From NCBI RefSeq assembly GCF_023028105.1, contig NZ_CP095491.1, positions 1,364,001-1,428,000 of the forward strand: a stretch of 64,000 nt of DNA, given 5' to 3'. The DNA comes from Halosolutus gelatinilyticus (GTDB taxonomy: Archaea > Halobacteriota > Halobacteria > Halobacteriales > Natrialbaceae). The translations under genes and the position numbers were made by a program. Under the pieces are notes generated by a model. It made no database searches and was not told the origin of the DNA. It saw only the letters and a list, made by a program, of their open reading frames with translations. This document shows positions 1 through 37,769 of this stretch, in pieces (position 1 is the first letter of the stretch; every line of letters begins with the position of its first letter).

Positions 1-2514
1 AAGGTGGGTGCCTCCGTCGGGCTCCATGCGGTAGCCGATCCAACCGCCGCCGTCGTCGAACTGCACGTCGGCCCAGTCGGCGGCGTTGTTCGGATCGAAC
101 TCCCAGTGGCTGGTGTCTCCGTCATCGACGACGGTCGCGGTCCAGCCGTCGCCGGCGTCGCCGGAGTAGGTGTTCCCGTCGCCGTTGTTGCCGTCATCTC
201 CGTCGTCGCCATCGTCTCCGTCGTCCTCGCCGGTGGACGTCGCCATCGAGTTCGCGGGGACGTACAGCTCCGCGCCGTCGGAGAACGTCACGGTCGTCCC
301 CGAGTCGCCGGCGTTGTAGGCGACGTAGGTCCGCTGCGTCCCGTCGCTGAATACCTGGTAAAACGGCGTGTCCGCGGTGACGGTACCGTCCGGCGCGCCC
401 ATCTCGTGGAGGTTGTAGATCCAGTGGTAGGTCTGGGCGCGCGTGTGGCCGGGTTCGACCTCGTAACTGCCCTTTCGGGCCTCGAACTTGTCGACGGCGT
501 CCTGTCCGTCCGAGAACGCGCGGTACATCCACATGAGGTCCGGCCAGTAGTCGAACTCGTCGGTCCCCTTGTTCGCGACGAGTTCGTCATAGTTCGCCGC
601 GGGGGCCGCGTCGTCCCAGCCGAGGTGCAGGGAGTAGCCGGCGAACGGCAGCCAGTTGATCCCGTGGATGGCCTCCTCGTCCGCGGTCCACCAGGTGGCG
701 TAGGCGTAGCCGTTGCCCCACACCATGCCGGCGGTGTCGTAGTCCCACGAGTCGGGGTGGTTCGTGCCGTCGGCGTCGAACCAGTACTCGTGGACGGCGT
801 GGAGTTCGGTCGTGTACAGGTAGACGCCGAAATCGCGCAGCTCCTCGTTTCCGGTGTACTCGCTCCACTCGACGATCGCCGCGTACGCGTTGAGCGCCTC
901 CGAGGAGGACTCCTGGTTGTTGCCGTCGGCGAACTTCGCGCCGCCGCCCTCCGCCCAGGAGTGCCCGCAGTAGGGGCTGAAGTTCCGCGCGAACGGGAAC
1001 ATGTCGTCCCCGCGGCTCGGATTGGCGTAGTCGCGGATCAAGTGTTCGACCATGCCGCCCCACTCGGACTCGGCGGCCCACCCGGGGTTCGTGCGCGCGA
1101 TCTCGGCGGCGGCGCGCACGTAGTAGCCGTAGTGAAAGTGGTGATCGGACAGCGACGACGCCGAGCCGTGGCTCTCGGGATAGCCGAGCAGCGTTCCCCA
1201 ATTGTCGTCGTAGTAGAACAGCTCCTCGGCGCCGCTCTCGGCCTGGAGCCACCGCTCGAGGTGGTCCCGCAGCGAGCCGACGATCGCGTCGCGCTTGTCG
1301 GGCAGGTCGAACTGCTCGGCCAGCGCCTTGCTCTCGACCAACCGGCCGTAGTCCTTGCCGACGTTGTACGTGTCGGGTCCCTCGATCGCGGTGTCGATCT
1401 CCTGGATGTACCCCCGCAGTTCGGCGGCGTCGTAGCTCCCCTCGTCGGGCAGGAACGGGAGCATGCCGCCGTAGTCGTAGGTCGTCGAGAACGACGGCCC
1501 GGCGACGGCGCGCATCTCCCCGCGCGGGGACGTGTACGTCGCCTCCAGCGTCTCGTCGTCGCTGTGTTTCCACTGGTGCGGGTGCAACGCGGTGATCGTT
1601 CCCGCGACCGCGCTCTCGGGTTTGTCGTCGGTCTCGAAGCTGAACGCGGTGCGCACCTCGGCGTTCGCCTCGTCGTACTCCCAGTCGACCGTCGTGTCGA
1701 CGACGAAGTTGTACGCGTACTCCTCGAACGTGTCGAGGGCGGCGGTCTCGGGCAGGGCGGCGATCGAGCAGTACCCCGCGCCGCCGAGGTCGTTGACGAG
1801 CGTATCGGTGCCGACGCCCGACCAACTCGTCCCTGACGGAGCGAACAGTCCGTAGTGGTGAGCGTCGATCGTGACGCCGAGGACGTTCCCCTCGTCGGCC
1901 CAGACCTCCGGCGCGTCGTCGAACGCGATCGCTGCGCCGCCGCCCTCGTACTCGCAGAACACGAACGGCGAGCCCTGCGCGAACGTCGCGCGCAGCGTCG
2001 TCGCGGTCCCCTCGCCCCAGATCGCGTCGACCGACCAGTCGCCGTGGTCGGCGAGACGCGCGTCGGCGAAGCCGTCGGCGCTCGTATGCCCGATCGTCAG
2101 GTCCCTGCCCCGGTTGTCCATCACCGTCGTCGAACCGTCGATCCACTCGGTCGGGTTCTTGACGAGGAGGCCATCCGCCTCCGCCCGCAGCATCAGGGGC
2201 TGGGAGAACATGTTCTCCGAGAACGCGTTCCAGACCAGGCTCGACCACCAGTCGTTGGTCGGAACCGGTTCGTCGCCGAACTCCGCGCCGGTCCAGATCG
2301 CGTCCTGGGGCGCCTCCGCTCCCGACGGTAACGCCGTCGCGTAACTGCCGTTGCCGACCGGGACGTGGTCGCTCGCACTAGCGGTGCCGACCGCACCGAT
2401 CGTCCCGACCGCCGAGGCGGCGCTGACCAGCTTACAGTAGTCCCTGCGGGAGACGTCGTTCGCGCGCGATTCGCTGTCGATTCCCTCGTCGTCCGAAAGT
2501 CGTCCGTCGTTCAT
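1..2514 (-). CDS. GH81 family endo-beta-1,3-glucanase, Tat-exported (3' end outside window)
   Basis: Secreted glycoside hydrolase predicted to cleave beta-1,3-glucans (laminarin or fungal-type glucan) outside the cell. The frame is open from the ATG at 2514 to the window edge (838 residues visible). The N-terminus has a twin-arginine signal (SRRDY at about residue 27, then a hydrophobic stretch ending TASA). The GH81 signature PTNDWWSSLVW follows. The motif SDHHFHYGYYV carries Asp457, and NNQESSSEA carries Glu535 and Glu539; this spacing fits the Asp and paired Glu of the GH81 active site. After the catalytic region an acidic Asp/Gly linker (about residues 760-775) leads into a further beta-rich domain that is cut off, probably a carbohydrate-binding module. 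An AT-rich segment with CTTATAATAA on this strand (2680-2689) is a possible promoter with a long leader. GH81 genes are uncommon in archaea. Confidence 0.93.
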   Translation of the reverse strand, partial: MNDGRLSDDEGIDSESRANDVSRRDYCKLVSAASAVGTIGAVGTASASDHVPVGNGSYATALPSGAEAPQDAIWTGAEFGDEPVPTNDWWSSLVWNAFSENMFSQPLMLRAEADGLLVKNPTEWIDGSTTVMDNRGRDLTIGHTSADGFADARLADHGDWSVDAIWGEGTATTLRATFAQGSPFVFCEYEGGGAAIAFDDAPEVWADEGNVLGVTIDAHHYGLFAPSGTSWSGVGTDTLVNDLGGAGYCSIAALPETAALDTFEEYAYNFVVDTTVDWEYDEANAEVRTAFSFETDDKPESAVAGTITALHPHQWKHSDDETLEATYTSPRGEMRAVAGPSFSTTYDYGGMLPFLPDEGSYDAAELRGYIQEIDTAIEGPDTYNVGKDYGRLVESKALAEQFDLPDKRDAIVGSLRDHLERWLQAESGAEELFYYDDNWGTLLGYPESHGSASSLSDHHFHYGYYVRAAAEIARTNPGWAAESEWGGMVEHLIRDYANPSRGDDMFPFARNFSPYCGHSWAEGGGAKFADGNNQESSSEALNAYAAIVEWSEYTGNEELRDFGVYLYTTELHAVHEYWFDADGTNHPDSWDYDTAGMVWGNGYAYATWWTADEEAIHGINWLPFAGYSLHLGWDDAAPAANYDELVANKGTDEFDYWPDLMWMYRAFSDGQDAVDKFEARKGSYEVEPGHTRAQTYHWIYNLHEMGAPDGTVTADTPFYQVFSDGTQRTYVAYNAGDSGTTVTFSDGAELYVPANSMATSTGEDDGDDGDDGDDGNNGDGNTYSGDAGDGWTATVVDDGDTSHWEFDPNNAADWADVQFDDGGGWIGYRMEPDGGTHL

Positions 2515-2777
2515 GCGTATCTACCGATAGCGCTCGGCGCGTCCGCCGAGACGGCGATCACCGTCGGCGGGTCTCTTCGTCCGGTACCGCTCGTGACGTT
2601 CGGGGCCTCCGTGGCTCCAGTACTGGCCGGTCGAATCCCGCGCCGCCGTTCGCTATCATCGGGACGTTCCACGAGGCAATTATTATAAGTTTTGTCTGTA
2701 ATAAATATATTGGCCCGATCACACGATCGGAAAATAGCGAGCGAAATCCGATCGCGGCGGTACGATCGCGACCTCGA

Positions 2778-5333
2778 CTACTCCGACGGCGATTCGCCGT
2801 CGGCTCCGTCTCGACCGTCCGCGGGCCGGCCGAACGTGAACACGTCACCCCTCCGGTTGTCGTCGTCGGACGACGCGGACCCGGCGTCGGAATCGTCGGC
2901 TGACGGGGCGTCGCCGGACCCCGGGCGGTCGTCGCTCCGGTCGCCGACTCGAGCCGTCTCGGCCGCGCCCTCGCGACTCGAATCCGTCGCCGGAACGGTC
3001 TCTCCGAGCGCCGGTTCGCCGTCGCGTTCGATCGACCCGTCGACGTCCGCGGCAGTGTCGAAGCGGTCGAGCGCCGTCGAGAGGTGCGACGCCTGGGTCG
3101 CGAGGTCGGACGCGGAGTGTGAGACCTCGGTGAGCGCGGTGGTCTGTTCTTCGGCGGCGGCGGCGACGGTTTCGGCTTCCTCCGACGTTTCCTCGCTGAT
3201 GGCGGCGGCTCCGTCGACCATGGCGACGACCTGCTGGGTCGAGGCGGCCTGCTGCTGGGTCGCCGCGCTGATCTCTTGGACGCCGGTGTTGGTCTCGGCG
3301 GCGTAGCCGGCGATCTCCTCGAGCGCGTCCGCCGCGTCGCGAACGGAGTCGGTGTGATCCGAGATTTCGGCGGCGGTTCCGCGAACTTCGTCGACGGCGG
3401 TGTCCGTCTGAGTCTTGATCCGTTCGAGACGGGTTTCGATGTCCGCGGCGGCGTCTTTCGTCTCGGCGGCCAGTTCCTTGACCTCCGTCGCGACCGCGCC
3501 GAACCCGCTGTCGTCGGCCTCGATCGACCGTGAGGCCTCGATGTTGGCGTTGAGCGCCAGCATGTTCGTCTGGTCGGCGACGTCGGTGATGAACTCGAGG
3601 AGGTCGTCGATCTGGGCGACGTCCTCCTGCAATCGTTCGATCTGGGCGACGGTTTCTTCGTTCTCGGTCTCGATCGAGTTCATCCCTTCGATCGCCAGTT
3701 TCGCGGCCCGCCGCCCGTCCCGGCCCGTCTCGGCGGTGCGTTCGGCGAAGTCGGCGACCTCGTTCGACGAGGCGGCGATCTCCTCGGTTGTCGTTGACAG
3801 GGCGTCCATCTCTCCGACGACGGTCTGCAGCGAGTCGTTCTGCCGATCGGCGCCGTCGGAGATCTCCTGTATCGACTCGGTGACCTGTTCGCTGGCGCTC
3901 TGGACCTCTTCGCTGGAGGCGGTCACCTGCTCGGAGGCGGTGGCGACCTCCTCGGCAAAGCGCTTCACTCGCTCCGTGGTCGCCTCGATCTCGGCGAGCA
4001 TCTTGTTGAACGCGACGGCGATCTCGGTCATCGCCTCGCTATCGCTCTCGGAATCCATCCGCGCAGTCAGGTCCCCGTTCGCGGCGTGGTCCATCACCGA
4101 TCGGTACTCGTCGGCTTTCAGTTCGAGGTGTTCGTTCATCCGCTGGGTCTCCGCGCGAGCCCGCTCGGCCTCCTCGCGAGCTCGTCCGGCCTCGCGAATC
4201 TGCGCCCGCAACGCGTCGCGCATGTTCGCGAACGCGGCGAAGAGCTGGCCGATCTCGTCCTCCCGGCGCGACGCGAGCGTCACGTCCAGGTCCCCGGCTT
4301 CCATCCGTTCGGCCCGCTCGCGAAGCCGGGCGAGCGGCGACACCGTCTGCCGCCCGAGCACCAGCGCGACGGCGCCGAGCGCGACGAGACTGACGAGCAC
4401 GATCGTGGCGACGTAGCGACCGACCTCATCGCGCACCGCGAACGCCTGCTCCGTCGAGACGGCCGTCACCGCGATCCAGTCCGTCCCCTCGACAGGAGCG
4501 TACGCCAGCACTCGGCCGTCCCGTCGTTCCTGCCTGACGTCGCCCGCCTCGTCGACCGCGGCGAGCACCTCCCGCTCCCGCTGGTCGCCGAAGGCCTTGA
4601 CGGCACCTCGCTCGTCACCCAGCACCACGTCGCCGTTCGCGTCGAGGATAATCGTCGAGTGCCCGACCGTCGGATGGTGGAGCGTGCTCACTCGGTACTC
4701 GATCGTGCCGACGAGGACGACGACCGCGTCCTTGCCGGGAACCGGCGCGACGAACGCCATCACCTTGTCGTCGAGGTTGGGGGTCCGGTACGCCGACGAC
4801 GTCCGGACGTCGCCGCTCCCGCCGTTCCGGACGGTCGACGCCTCCGCCCAGGGCTCGGCCACGGCGTCAAGTTTGCTACCGACGATCGGATTGTGCGTGC
4901 TCGCGACGACCGTCTCGGACTCGAGGTCGACGTAGTGTACCGCCCGCACGTCCGCCGATAACCGCTGTCGCGTCGTCACGAGACGACTGTTCAGCTCGGA
5001 ACCGTCGGCGTTCGCTATCGATTCCGATCGGGCGACCGACAGGGTCTGCACCCGCATCCCTTCGGCCCACTCGCCGAGCGCGTCGGCCTGCATCGTCGCC
5101 GACGAATTCAGCGTGTTCCGGGTGTCGCGCTCGACCGTGTCGCCGGCCTGGACGTAGCCGACGACGCCGATCGCGGCGATCACCAGGACGACGGCGAGGA
5201 TCGAAACGGCGAACTTCGCCGCGTACCGCCGTCTGATCGGATCCGGAACGAGGGTCGACGCCAGTCGCCGTCGCGACGCCGGCATCCCGCCGGTCGAGTC
5301 CCGGTTCTCGTGTTCGTCGTCCGTGCGAGTCAT
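2778..5333 (-). CDS. Methyl-accepting chemotaxis transducer (Htr-type) with extracellular Cache-like sensor
   Basis: 851-residue membrane-bound signal transducer that would control CheA and so the archaellum. Basic N-terminus, TM1 at about 41-60, extracellular sensor of about 240 residues resembling a double Cache domain, TM2 at about 307-327, then HAMP (about 328-380), a coiled coil, a second HAMP-like segment (to about 470) and the cytoplasmic signalling domain. The hairpin region reads DQTNMLALNANIEAS and later AVATEVKELAAETK, which is the MCP signature. The C-terminal 100 residues are an acidic Ser/Asp/Gly-rich tail. No che genes are nearby, so this is an orphan transducer. The ligand cannot be read from sequence; Cache domains usually bind small organic acids or amino acids. 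An AT-rich promoter-like patch lies 160 nt upstream (about 5490-5510). Confidence 0.93.
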   Translation of the reverse strand: MTRTDDEHENRDSTGGMPASRRRLASTLVPDPIRRRYAAKFAVSILAVVLVIAAIGVVGYVQAGDTVERDTRNTLNSSATMQADALGEWAEGMRVQTLSVARSESIANADGSELNSRLVTTRQRLSADVRAVHYVDLESETVVASTHNPIVGSKLDAVAEPWAEASTVRNGGSGDVRTSSAYRTPNLDDKVMAFVAPVPGKDAVVVLVGTIEYRVSTLHHPTVGHSTIILDANGDVVLGDERGAVKAFGDQREREVLAAVDEAGDVRQERRDGRVLAYAPVEGTDWIAVTAVSTEQAFAVRDEVGRYVATIVLVSLVALGAVALVLGRQTVSPLARLRERAERMEAGDLDVTLASRREDEIGQLFAAFANMRDALRAQIREAGRAREEAERARAETQRMNEHLELKADEYRSVMDHAANGDLTARMDSESDSEAMTEIAVAFNKMLAEIEATTERVKRFAEEVATASEQVTASSEEVQSASEQVTESIQEISDGADRQNDSLQTVVGEMDALSTTTEEIAASSNEVADFAERTAETGRDGRRAAKLAIEGMNSIETENEETVAQIERLQEDVAQIDDLLEFITDVADQTNMLALNANIEASRSIEADDSGFGAVATEVKELAAETKDAAADIETRLERIKTQTDTAVDEVRGTAAEISDHTDSVRDAADALEEIAGYAAETNTGVQEISAATQQQAASTQQVVAMVDGAAAISEETSEEAETVAAAAEEQTTALTEVSHSASDLATQASHLSTALDRFDTAADVDGSIERDGEPALGETVPATDSSREGAAETARVGDRSDDRPGSGDAPSADDSDAGSASSDDDNRRGDVFTFGRPADGRDGADGESPSE

Positions 5334-6672
5334 CCGTCCGCCCCGTAGTGGTCTCGTTCGTTCGTCATCTGTGTCTCTCCGCCGTACGCTCCCGTATCGC
5401 CTCTCGCCCCCAGTTTACGAACCGTCAGCCGATGCTACCGGCCTGGCTGCCGTACTGCGGCGATCTTCGAAGCAGTTCTTAATTGTCGTTACAATATATA
5501 AATTATTCGCTATTTCAACCTCTTCTGGCCTTCCGATCGTCCCGCGATCACCCCGGAATCGCGCAGTTCCTCGGCGCCGATCCCTCGTTCGAAGTCGATT
5601 CAAGACACCGGTACCCGCTCGTTCCCGCCGTTCCGCTCTTCGGCCGTCAGATTCGCTCCGTCGATCCACCCGATCGAACGCTAACGATTTACCAACACAT
5701 TCGATGGTTGATTGCTCATTTTTACCTGCTAATACTTGGAGAAACAGCCGACTCAGTCGACCGATATATGACATAATTATATCATGTATTCACCAAATAG
5801 ACAGATTTTGTGTATATCCGGATCTTGCGGGAAGAGTTTCGGTATCCGTCGACCGCCGGCAGTTCGACCGACTAATCCTACGGTGACAGGGCCGCGCGGG
5901 AACGCATCGGCCGTCCGCCGGCCGCCGGTCACCGATGTTCCACGGTCGGCAGACCCGACGACCGGAAACGGCGCCCCGATCAATTTACAGGCATACGTTC
6001 GTAATTACGCTGTGCGTCCTCGGGTTGTTCCGAACTTCGTGGACATAATAAACTATATAGGAATTTATTATGACCGAGAATCCGTTTTTGCGCCATTTAC
6101 ATCAATTCTCTGTGGTTATCAGAAGGCATAGTTATCGCTGCGGATTTCGTGCGACTCGATCGTCCGGCACGCGCCGGTGGAACCGGAGATGCGGAGCCAG
6201 CCGACGGCCCGGTGCCGATCGCAGTCCGGATCACGGTGCAGGTGACGAACCGCGATGACGGCTCGCTGTCGAGCGGTACTGGCCGTCCGCTGCCGTGATC
6301 CTGAATCGGTCGATCTTCTCTGCCACCCACTCAACTCGGACGGAATCGGTATTTCGAGGATCGTTCGCCCGACGCTTCGCGAAAACCACGGTGTCGCGGA
6401 TGCCGTCTCTCTCGGGGCCTGTGACGCCGCGCCGAACAATGTCGTTATCGAGACGATCCAAGCCCGAAGACAGGGATCGTGACGATCGGCTCATCGGTAC
6501 GTTTGGTGTAGCGGTAGAATGAGTGTCTTTTCAATCATCTGTATTTTCCCAATCTTCCAGTGAAAAAACTCCAATAGAGTTTTCGATCGGTCGGTTCGCT
6601 CGAACCGGCGGCGGTGATAGGTCTTCCGAGGGCGACCAAACCCTCTTTGCCGTCCGGCCCGAGAGGAATGCG
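5334..6672. other. AT-rich gene-poor stretch
   Basis: No convincing gene on either strand. The short open frames here have arginine/serine-rich translations typical of antisense or random GC-rich DNA, and none matches a family I know. Base composition is visibly more AT-rich than the flanks at 5480-5515, 5680-5820 and 6040-6130. The stretch holds a near-perfect palindrome around 5768-5785 (ATGACATAATTATATCAT), a 9-bp perfect inverted repeat CATAATAAA/TTTATTATG at 6044-6052 and 6064-6072, and a 38-bp fragment of the acyl-CoA dehydrogenase 3' end (separate entry). It looks like a decayed or rearranged intergenic region carrying promoters for the genes on both sides. Confidence 0.6.
6152..6189 (+). 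repeat. 38-bp inverted repeat, copy A (fragment of the acyl-CoA dehydrogenase 3' end)
   Basis: This segment matches the reverse complement of 8162-8199 at 37 of 38 positions (single difference at 6182 versus 8169). In the appropriate frame it reads DSIVRHAPVEPE, exactly the peptide near the C-terminus of the acyl-CoA dehydrogenase encoded downstream. Sequence on either side no longer aligns convincingly with that gene. The two copies are in opposite orientation and enclose the cytochrome P450 gene. Confidence 0.9.
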
Positions 6673-8016
6673 ATGAGTTCGCACAGCCGTCCGCCCGGTC
6701 CGCGCGGCGTTCCGATCGCCGGCTCTCTCCCGCGGTACGCGGCGGACCCGTTCCGATTCGTGACGGAGCTGCGCGACGCCTACGGCGACGTCGCCGCCTT
6801 TGACCTCGGGCCGAACCGAACGTACCTGTTCACGGCGCCGACGGCCGTCGAACGCGTGCTCGTGACCGAGGAGTCGGCCTTCTCCAAGCCGCGGTTCCAG
6901 ACCGACGCGCTCGGCGACCTCCTCGGCGAGGGCCTGCTGTTGAGCGAGGGCGAGACCTGGCGCGAACGCCGGGATATCGCGGGACCGGCGTTCGCCCCCG
7001 ATCGAATTTCGAACCTCGCTCCGATGATGGCTCGGCGATCGGTCGAGATGGTCGATCGGTGGAACGACGGCGACGAGCGCGACGTCGAGTGGGAGATGAC
7101 CCGGACGACGCTCGAGATCATCGTCGAGTCGATGTTCGGAATCGATCTCGATCCCGGCCGATCCCGCCAGATCCGCCGACTCCTGGAGCCGATCGGCCGG
7201 CGGTTCGAGCCCGACCCGCGGCGGCTTGTGGTGCCGGAGTGGGTGCCGACGCCGACCCAACGCGAGTTCGACCGCTCGATCGCCGAACTCGAGCGGATCG
7301 TCGACGTGTTCGTCGATCGGCGTCGGCGGCGAGGGATCGACCCGGACGACCGCGACCTGCTCGCGTTGCTCCTGCGGGCTCGCGAGGCGGGAGCGATCGA
7401 CGAGGAGGGAATCCGCGACGAACTGTTGACGATGCTGCTGGCGGGTCACGACACGACCGCGCTGGTGCTCACGTACGCCTGGGCGCTGCTGTCCGAGCAC
7501 CCCGACGTCGAACGGCGGATTCACGCGGAGGTCGACGCGCTGTTCGACGATCGGGACGACCCCCGGGAGCTGACGGCGATCGACGTGCGGCAGCTCGCGA
7601 CGCTCCGAAACGTCCTCCGGGAGACGATGCGGCTCTACCCGCCGGTGTACGCGCTCTTCCGGCAGGTCGATCGCCCGGTCGAGGTTTCGGGGTATCGCCT
7701 CCCCGAGGCCGCGTTCGTCCTCCTGTCCCAGTGGGCGACCCACCGCGACCCGCGCTACTTCGACGACCCGGAGACGTTCGATCCCGATCGGTGGACCGAC
7801 CCGCGCCACCCGACCTACGCCTACTTCCCGTTCGGGGCCGGCCCGCGCAGTTGCATCGGGAAAGGGTTCACGATGCTCGAAGCGCCTATCATCGCGGCGA
7901 TCGTCGCCCGCGAGTTCCGCCTGCACCGCACCCAATCCGACCCGATCGACCTCCGCGGGTCGCTGACCGCCCATCCCGAAGGCGGGATGCCGATGGAACT
8001 CGTCCGCCGGTCGTGA
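6673..8016 (+). CDS. Cytochrome P450 monooxygenase
   Basis: Soluble haem-thiolate monooxygenase of 447 residues, the usual length for prokaryotic P450s. Landmarks in order: proline-rich PPGPRGVPIAG N-terminus, WRERRDIAGPAF (C-helix, about 96-107), I-helix LAGHDTTA (257-263) with the acid-threonine pair for oxygen activation, ExxR motif ETMR (317-320), and the haem loop FGAGPRSCIGKGF with Cys394 as haem ligand. I chose the ATG at 6673 because conserved P450 sequence begins there; an in-frame ATG at 6523 would add 50 unrelated residues from AT-rich DNA. The substrate is unknown. No ferredoxin or reductase gene is adjacent, so redox partners must be elsewhere. It converges on the acyl-CoA dehydrogenase gene and lies between the two copies of the 38-bp inverted repeat. 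Confidence 0.95.
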   Translation: MSSHSRPPGPRGVPIAGSLPRYAADPFRFVTELRDAYGDVAAFDLGPNRTYLFTAPTAVERVLVTEESAFSKPRFQTDALGDLLGEGLLLSEGETWRERRDIAGPAFAPDRISNLAPMMARRSVEMVDRWNDGDERDVEWEMTRTTLEIIVESMFGIDLDPGRSRQIRRLLEPIGRRFEPDPRRLVVPEWVPTPTQREFDRSIAELERIVDVFVDRRRRRGIDPDDRDLLALLLRAREAGAIDEEGIRDELLTMLLAGHDTTALVLTYAWALLSEHPDVERRIHAEVDALFDDRDDPRELTAIDVRQLATLRNVLRETMRLYPPVYALFRQVDRPVEVSGYRLPEAAFVLLSQWATHRDPRYFDDPETFDPDRWTDPRHPTYAYFPFGAGPRSCIGKGFTMLEAPIIAAIVAREFRLHRTQSDPIDLRGSLTAHPEGGMPMELVRRS

Positions 8017-8129
8017 TCGCGCGCCCCTCGCGAGCGCTGTAACGCGGTCTTCGCCGCACGAACGTGGCCCGATCGGAACGCCGGCGAACTGTCCGTGCGG
8101 ATCGGACGAGTTCCGCCCGCTGGAGCGAG

Positions 8130-10013
8130 CTACTCGCTCGCCGTCGCCGTCTCCGAGACGGTCTCCGGCTCCACCGGCGCGTGCCGGACGATCGAGTCGA
8201 ACGCTTCGAGGACGAACCGATCGCCGCTCGTGATCCCCCGCGCCTCGCGGTCCGCGAGTTCGGTCTGAATGAACCGGCGAGCGATGAGCGCCAGCCGACC
8301 GTTGCCGGCCTCGAGTTCCGCCTGGGCTTCGTCGAGTAGCAGCGCCGCGGTGAAGACGTCGAAGACGTAGCGGGCGAGCCGTTTCGCGGAGAGCTGCGCG
8401 TACTCGGGGTCGTCGCCGGCGAGCGTCGCGAGCGCTCTCGCGAGGTTCTGGTACTCGGATTCGACCGTTGCCGCGGCGTCCGCGAGCGCCGGATGAGAGA
8501 TCCGCTCGAGTCGGTCCTCGATCGCCTCGCGCAGCGGTTCGTGGGCGTCCTCGCGCTCCAGCGCCCGGAGCACGTCGAGCGAGAGGATGTTCTCGGTCCC
8601 CTCCCAGATCGGCAGCACCTGCGCGTCCCGGAGCAGGCGGTTGGTGACGAAATCGTCGACGTAGCCGTTGCCGCCCTGAATCTCCATCCCGTACGAGGCG
8701 GCGTCGACCGCCATCCGAGCCGTGCGGAGTTTGGCGATCGGGATCAGGAGCCGCATCAGTCGGTACTCGTCGTCGGCCTCACCCCCGGCGCTCGCGGTTT
8801 CACCGCTCGCAGCCCCCGCGGAACGGAGTTCCGCGCTCCGCTCGGCGCGTTCGCGCTCGGAGAAGAGCCGCGCGGCCTCGAAGACGTACGCCGTCGCGGC
8901 CTCGTGGGCGACGGTCATGTCGACCAGATCCTCCCGCATCAGCGGATACTGATCGATCGTCTCGCCGAAGGCTTCGCGGTTCGCGGCGCGAATCTTGCTC
9001 TCCAGCAGGACTCGACCGATGATTCCGCACGACGCGGCGGCGTTCGAGAGCCGCTCCAGGTTGAGCATCTCGACCATCTGTCGGAAGCCGTTCTCCGCCT
9101 CGCCGACGAGGTACGCCTTCGCACCGCGGAACTCGACTTCGCCCGTCGGAACCGAGACGGTCCCGAGTTTGTCCTTGAGGCGGCGGTACAGCTGGTCGTT
9201 CACCTCGTCGGGCGAGAGCGGTCCGTTCTCCAGTCGATCGCCCTTCGTGACGGGACTCGCCGCTGAACCCGTTGGATCGCTGTGCGGGACGAGGAACATC
9301 GAGAGGCCGTCCGTTCCCGCCGGAGCGCCGTCGGTCCGGGCGAGCGCCAGCGTTCCCTCGGCGTCGACGTTCGAGCAGAACCACTTCTCGCCGGAGAGGC
9401 GCCAGCACCCCTCTTCGTCGTCGTACGCCGCGCGCGTCTCGTTCGCGCCGACGTCGCTGCCGCCCTGCTTCTCGGTGAGGAACATCGCGCCCTCGATCAG
9501 GTCGTCGTACTCGCGACTCGTTAGGGCCTCGTAGTACTCCGCCAGGGGGCCGTCGTCGAACTTCTCCAGGACGAGCGCCGCGCCCGCGGTCATCGCAACC
9601 GGGCAGTCGAAGCCGGGGTCCGCGTAACACAGCAGGTACTGCATCGCGAGATTGTGCGAGAGCGGCATCGGCTCGTCGCGACTCGGCGGCGCCTCGAAGG
9701 CGTCCGCGACGATGCCACTCTCGTACGTGAGACGCTCGTTCTCGATCTGTTCGGCGGGGTACCGGACGAAATTCTGAACTTCACCGTACTTGTCGTACGT
9801 CTCGAGTTCTGGCCCGTGGTCGTCGACGTAGTCCGCGTTGTCCGCGATCGTGCGACCGACGATCGCGCCGAACTCGGACAGGCGGGGCTCGGCCCAGTCG
9901 AACTCGTCGTCGGCGTAGATCCGGCGCAGTTCTCGCTGCAGCGCCCGATCGAGCTCCCAGTAGTTCACGTCCCGTCCCTCCTCGAATCGGCCGTAATCGA
10001 TCCCGTCGCTCAT
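8130..10013 (-). CDS. AidB-like acyl-CoA dehydrogenase family flavoprotein
   Basis: FAD-dependent acyl-CoA dehydrogenase fold enzyme of 627 residues, longer than the 380-400 of classical members and closest in motifs to the E. coli AidB subfamily. The visible motifs are MFLTEKQGGSDVGANETRA (FAD/substrate region), EKWFCSNVDAEGTLALART, RLKDKLGT, MEIQGGNGYVDD, and IWEGTENILSLDVLRAL near the FAD-binding arginine/ENIL region. A low-complexity Ala/Gly/Ser insertion sits at about 405-420. The ATG at 10013 (MSDGIDYGRFEEG) is preferred over an in-frame start 45 nt upstream whose extra residues look non-coding. True acyl-CoA substrates are unproven for AidB-like proteins. The last 12 codons before the tail contain copy B of the 38-bp inverted repeat. 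Confidence 0.9.
   Translation of the reverse strand: MSDGIDYGRFEEGRDVNYWELDRALQRELRRIYADDEFDWAEPRLSEFGAIVGRTIADNADYVDDHGPELETYDKYGEVQNFVRYPAEQIENERLTYESGIVADAFEAPPSRDEPMPLSHNLAMQYLLCYADPGFDCPVAMTAGAALVLEKFDDGPLAEYYEALTSREYDDLIEGAMFLTEKQGGSDVGANETRAAYDDEEGCWRLSGEKWFCSNVDAEGTLALARTDGAPAGTDGLSMFLVPHSDPTGSAASPVTKGDRLENGPLSPDEVNDQLYRRLKDKLGTVSVPTGEVEFRGAKAYLVGEAENGFRQMVEMLNLERLSNAAASCGIIGRVLLESKIRAANREAFGETIDQYPLMREDLVDMTVAHEAATAYVFEAARLFSERERAERSAELRSAGAASGETASAGGEADDEYRLMRLLIPIAKLRTARMAVDAASYGMEIQGGNGYVDDFVTNRLLRDAQVLPIWEGTENILSLDVLRALEREDAHEPLREAIEDRLERISHPALADAAATVESEYQNLARALATLAGDDPEYAQLSAKRLARYVFDVFTAALLLDEAQAELEAGNGRLALIARRFIQTELADREARGITSGDRFVLEAFDSIVRHAPVEPETVSETATASE
8162..8199 (-). repeat. 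38-bp inverted repeat, copy B (inside the acyl-CoA dehydrogenase gene)
   Basis: Partner of 6152-6189 in opposite orientation, with 37 of 38 bases matching. Here it is functional coding sequence for DSIVRHAPVEPE, eleven residues before the stop. This is presumably the parental copy, since it lies in an intact gene. The enclosed segment is about 1.97 kb and contains only the P450. Confidence 0.9.
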
Positions 10014-37259: not shown

Positions 37260-37769
37260 TTATTTGACCTGAATCTCCCCTTCCATCGGGGAGTGGGGCT
37301 TGCAACGATACTTGACGATTTCGCTGGCGGCGGTGAACGAGATGAACTGGTCGTCGCCGCCTTCGGAGCTAAGCTCCGTCTCGTAGTCCTGGACGACTTC
37401 ATCGTTCTCATTGCGGAGCTGGAGGTTGTGTTTCTGACCATCGCCCTTGTTCCAGCCGATCTCGTAGTCTTCGCCGTCCTGAAGGACGAGCGTCGGGTTC
37501 TCGACGCCCTCGATGGCGGACGGGGAGACACCCTTCCAGCCGCTCATGTTGGCTTCGAGTTCGATCGTACCCGGATCGATATCGTAGGTGTCGCCGCCGT
37601 CGCCGCCATCGCCACCGTCGCCACCGTCGCCACCGTCGCCACCGTCGCCACCGTCGCCGCCGTCGCCGCCGTCGCCGCCGCTGCTACATCCCGCAACGAC
37701 TGCGGTCGCGGCCGCCGCGCCCGCGAGCTTCATGGCTTTGCGCCGTGAGAGGTTGTCGTCTTGTGTCAT
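37260..37769 (-). CDS. Type-1 copper (plastocyanin/halocyanin-like) Tat lipoprotein, copy 2
   Basis: 169 residues. Tat-type start (LSRRKAMKLAG), lipobox VVAGC (Cys28), then exactly ten Gly-Gly-Asp units (31-60) as a flexible spacer. The cupredoxin domain has ligands His114 (GQKHNLQLRN), Cys156 and His159 (KYRCKPH) and Met162 (SPMEG). It shares SAIEGVENPTL with the neighbouring copy, so the pair arose by tandem duplication. Such proteins carry electrons to terminal oxidases or nitrogen-oxide reductases in haloarchaea, none of which is in this window. Confidence 0.88.
   Translation of the reverse strand: MTQDDNLSRRKAMKLAGAAAATAVVAGCSSGGDGGDGGDGGDGGDGGDGGDGGDGGDGGDTYDIDPGTIELEANMSGWKGVSPSAIEGVENPTLVLQDGEDYEIGWNKGDGQKHNLQLRNENDEVVQDYETELSSEGGDDQFISFTAASEIVKYRCKPHSPMEGEIQVK
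37591..37680 (-). repeat. Tandem 9-bp repeat encoding (Gly-Gly-Asp)10
   Basis: Ten consecutive 9-bp units (plus strand TCGCCACCG with TCGCCGCCG and TCGCCGCCA variants) encode the spacer of the copper lipoprotein. The five central units are identical and the outer ones differ at one position, so the tract probably changes length by slippage in whole codon triplets, which would lengthen or shorten the linker without loss of frame. Confidence 0.9.

Follow-up and report, generated by a model that had tools for sequence, protein, structure and literature searches.

The stretch of DNA analysed here, referred to as the window, comprises 64,000 nucleotides of the chromosome of Halosolutus gelatinilyticus (contig NZ_CP095491.1, positions 1,364,001 to 1,428,000). 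Near its left end a cytochrome P450 gene and an acyl-CoA dehydrogenase (ACAD) gene converge, and an inverted repeat encloses the P450 gene. One arm of the repeat (copy 2) forms part of the 3′-end of the ACAD gene; the other (copy 1) is located close to the right end of an island which begins left of the window. Coordinates with the prefix C1 or C2 refer to contigs of this genome (G000), C1:1370626 being window position 6626. The following features were identified:

C1:1343642-1344032, plus strand: left IS6-family remnant, degenerate, identified by profile evidence only
1-2514, minus strand: GH81 endo-beta-1,3-glucanase gene, extending with its 3′-end beyond the left border of the window (Pfam Glyco_hydro81C, 9e-46)
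2778-5333, minus strand: gene for a methyl-accepting chemotaxis protein, inside the island (Pfam MCPsignal and HAMP)
6152-6189, plus strand: copy 1 (42 nt if extended to 6148), which duplicates the ACAD 3′-end ectopically and in inverted orientation
6204-6455, plus strand: right IS6-family transposase remnant, degenerate (nhmmer, 2e-18; blastn to IS copies of the family)
6625/6626, no strand: right synteny breakpoint of the island; homology to the congeners G001 and G002 resumes at 6626/6627, and positions 1-6625 of the window are island DNA
6673-8016, plus strand: cytochrome P450 gene; it converges with ACAD, an arrangement shared by relatives (Pfam p450, 5e-81; synteny)
8130-10013, minus strand: ACAD gene with an AidB-type N-terminal domain (Pfam Acyl-CoA_dh_1, Acyl-CoA_dh_M and AidB_N), its start codon picked by homology
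8162-8199, minus strand: copy 2, the native ACAD 3′-end encoding DSIVRHAPVEPE, at a position conserved in the ACAD genes of about 30 relatives

An earlier note on this DNA had described 6152-6189 and 8162-8199 as inverted copies identical at 37 of 38 positions. This match was borne out by a repeat search, which extended the core of the pair to arms of 42 nt (6148-6189 and 8162-8203) with 95% identity. Its further claim that such a near-identity outside a repeat family is unlikely to be due to chance also held, since no match with three or fewer mismatches arose in dinucleotide shuffles of the window and the genome (4.76 Mb, four contigs) contains exactly two copies. In approximately 493 kb (about 0.49 Mb) of this genome, scanned for pairs with at least 30 matches and at least 93% identity within 10 kb, it was the sole inverted pair; the few direct pairs that emerged from the same scan were tandem repeats or presumed gene paralogues. 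A search of viral contigs with a 33-nt pattern did not reveal any match. Thus, the inverted repeat is real, unusual and outside any repeat family. Membership in a scattered family was rejected, as only two copies exist in the genome. Elsewhere in the window, positions 37591-37680 harbor a direct repeat resembling a tandem repeat, in which TCGCC/ACC units are abundant.

The two arms have different histories. In the congeners G001 and G002, the region was matched only within their own ACAD genes, and the ACAD 42-mer is identical to those of two congeners at 36 and 34 of 42 positions, as compared with 40 of 42 for copy 1. These comparisons show that the ACAD copy is ancestral and 6152-6189 the extra copy. 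The closer similarity of the ACAD 42-mer to copy 1 than to the congeners indicates a young or homogenised copy; copy 1 would accordingly post-date the divergence from the congeners, or have been homogenised after it. The earlier suggestion that the repeat is the scar of a past duplication is therefore supported: copy 1 is a duplicate of the ACAD 3′-end at a secondary, ectopic site.

The note had also considered a past inversion. The gene order, in which the Hjc resolvase gene is followed by P450 and a convergent ACAD gene, was found to be kept in six relatives (G001, G002, G093, G094, Natribaculum breve and Natronococcus pandeyae), with the P450 gene oriented as in the window. Downstream of the repeat, the ACAD protein continues with TVSETATASE up to the stop, corresponding to TVSETVTADD or AVSETVTADD in the congeners. 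Had the segment inverted with breakpoints at the repeats, this end would have been exchanged for another. Since both the orientation of P450 and the ACAD end past the repeat match the relatives, the 1.97-kb segment has not been inverted, and the suggestion of an inversion scar lacks support. The relatives possess only the ACAD copy; the second copy does not occur in them.

What does distinguish the locus from that of its relatives is an insertion of about 27.1 kb between Hjc and P450. The Hjc gene (C1:1343011-1343526), adjacent to P450 in the six relatives, lies 27 kb away from it in this genome. Homology to the congeners ends at C1:1343533 and restarts at C1:1370626, which places the island at about C1:1343534-1370625. 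It carries genes for a GH3 enzyme, an ABC transporter of the oligopeptide/oligosaccharide type (the GH3 and transporter names are putative, read off the sequences outside the domain scan), a GH16 enzyme with CBM6, a G8/CBM6 protein, two GH81 enzymes, a TrmB regulator and the chemotaxis receptor, whose best matches in relatives reached only 54-55%. We interpret it as an island for the utilisation of beta-1,3-glucan (laminarin-like). The island GH81 has 87% identity to a protein from a different genus, as against 47-48% to those of congeners; the genome of that other genus also shares rearranged island blocks of about 8.5 kb and about 4 kb, and together these findings point to horizontal acquisition. 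Within the family, the distribution of the island is patchy.

To both ends of the island, remnants of insertion sequences could be assigned. A DNA profile built from eight IS6-family copies of the host's family gave two strong matches, C1:1343642-1344032 and C1:1370204-1370455, both on the plus strand with E-values of about 1e-17. No matches were obtained in reversed sequences and 300 shuffles, and a single weak one in 280 kb of DNA of relatives. The left and right remnants are similar to each other with 44 bits (shuffles at most 34), and a weaker similarity of the right remnant to the left one runs past 6455 to about 6611. The left remnant did not yield a tblastn match and is the weaker case of the two. 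In the plasmid collection, IS6 transposase was the only match. A longer and better preserved IS6-family copy, with 76% identity to the query, a member of the family, is located at C2:399842-400516.

Directly repeated IS6 remnants thus flank the island cargo, and both synteny breaks coincide with, or lie close to, the projected IS ends. Elements of the IS6 family are known to form cointegrates, and directly repeated copies of them to enclose cargo as pseudo-compound transposons (PMC7986276). With its 27-kb cargo between direct IS6-type remnants and synteny breaks placed in this way, the island resembles pseudo-compound transposons of the IS26/IS257 type. Unlike those, both IS are degenerate fragments and the cargo serves polysaccharide catabolism; terminal inverted repeats, represented in the family copies by TGTTCAGATAAG-type ends, were not recognisable at the island ends. 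Such cargo-moving structures are known mostly for resistance genes of bacteria. The beta-glucan island between decayed IS6 copies would be a plausible archaeal case.

Copy 1 resides at the inner edge of the right remnant, its end being separated from the detectable start of the remnant by 14 nt. The earlier description of its surroundings as non-coding, AT-rich DNA has to be modified: the region is only moderately AT-rich (GC content 41% at 6000-6099 and 57% at 6100-6199), and instead of plain intergenic DNA, the remnant of a decayed transposase adjoins copy 1. Left of copy 1, there was no IS similarity above that of shuffles, 186 of 300 of which scored equally well. The junction shares CTCGATCG with the IS consensus, a match equalled by 91 of 300 shuffles; CGATCG is a common motif in this DNA. 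The right remnant may still retain its 5′-part in unrecognisable form, and copy 1 would then not mark the true truncation point.

We consider it likely that the inverted repeat is a one-off, inert scar, and copy 1 is probably without present function. A break or a stalled fork at the edge of the decaying IS would have been repaired, after the lineage had split from its congeners, by copying a short stretch of the nearby ACAD gene in inverted orientation, either through templated insertion in microhomology-mediated end joining (MMEJ) or through a template switch during replication. The extra copy of 38-42 bp of nearby unique DNA sits in sequence absent from the congeners, and a short filler from a gene 2 kb away, at a broken IS edge, is what would be expected of these two processes. 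For this specific repair mechanism we see about an even chance. In Haloferax volcanii, which does not possess Ku, breaks are mended through homologous recombination or error-prone MMEJ (PMC7776575); the reviewed MMEJ products of Haloferax are deletions, which counts against a scar of templated insertion, and we did not find an archaeal templated filler of such size described in the literature. Copy 1 resembles known templated-insertion and template-switch duplications in its length of tens of bp, its unique donor 2 kb away, its inverted orientation and its position at a rearranged junction. It differs from them in that those are mainly eukaryotic and found at quasipalindromes, while no diagnostic microhomology occurs here and the event is reconstructed from its product. 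Comparison with the relatives offers an explanation for the striking repeat, in that one arm is ordinary coding sequence and the other probably a late scar at the island boundary.

A rearrangement mediated by IS6 itself, in which recombination between the right-hand IS and an IS6 copy once located close to the end of ACAD would have brought the ACAD tail along, would agree with the position of copy 1 next to an IS6 remnant and with the cointegrates and pseudo-compound transposons described for these elements (PMC7986276). We regard it as unlikely, as the profile scan of the window disclosed no IS remnant at the ACAD end, this end is undisturbed, and 38-42 bp differs from the 8-bp target duplication of IS6. 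Rather less probable still is an inversion of the P450 segment by staggered breaks, with fill-in leaving the 38 bp duplicated at either end. Short inverted duplicates at both segment ends are a signature known from inversion breakpoints, but the conserved orientation of P450 and an ACAD end that reaches its stop beyond the repeat, like that of the congeners, would require a second inversion that restored the order. Selection for a regulatory element, whereby transcription of the minus strand across copy 1 would yield an RNA antisense to the 3′-end of the ACAD mRNA, appears very improbable. The high identity of the copies amid decayed surroundings would fit it, yet is explained by young age; moreover, copy 1 is absent from relatives, Rfam gave nothing above threshold (one sub-threshold chance match), and single-strand DNA folding of the copy-1 region was no better than that of shuffles.

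The least credible reading is an active or slow inversion switch by which P450 would change its direction and ACAD its tail, a possibility raised by the earlier note for which supporting evidence did not emerge and against which several tests spoke. In its favor, a near-identical 38-bp inverted repeat flanks a gene as in invertible DNA switches of phase variation, haloarchaea recombine, and both alternative ACAD reading frames exist. The two tails given by the note proved correct on recomputation: the present protein ends in ...VEPETVSETATASE and the post-inversion one would end in ...VEPEMRSQPTARCRSQSGSRCR, with 634 and 626 residues, respectively, from the same codon. However, inversion would add the Arg-rich tail MRSQPTARCRSQSGSRCR to a protein with a predicted pI of 4.4, an implausible alternative end. 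Unlike known switches, the pair is not conserved as recombination sites, relatives having one arm as conserved coding sequence but not the other, and no recombinase is nearby: the nearest PF00589 (integrase) match lies more than 350 kb away at C1:1728323, and PF00239 (serine recombinase) is absent from the genome. The conserved proximal upstream DNA of P450 (from 6626) is within the segment, so that a flip would not uncouple it from the gene. The assembly shows one orientation of the segment. An equally slight probability is given to low-frequency recombination of the repeats in vivo, by which, as the accidental outcome of a repair event, the P450 segment would be inverted in a minority of chromosome copies and their ACAD would end in a basic tail of 18 residues.

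Among the ACAD homologues, those of genus g24 (G113, G114, G111 and G112) are in pieces or contain an in-frame TGA; they are possibly pseudogenes or reflect sequencing errors.
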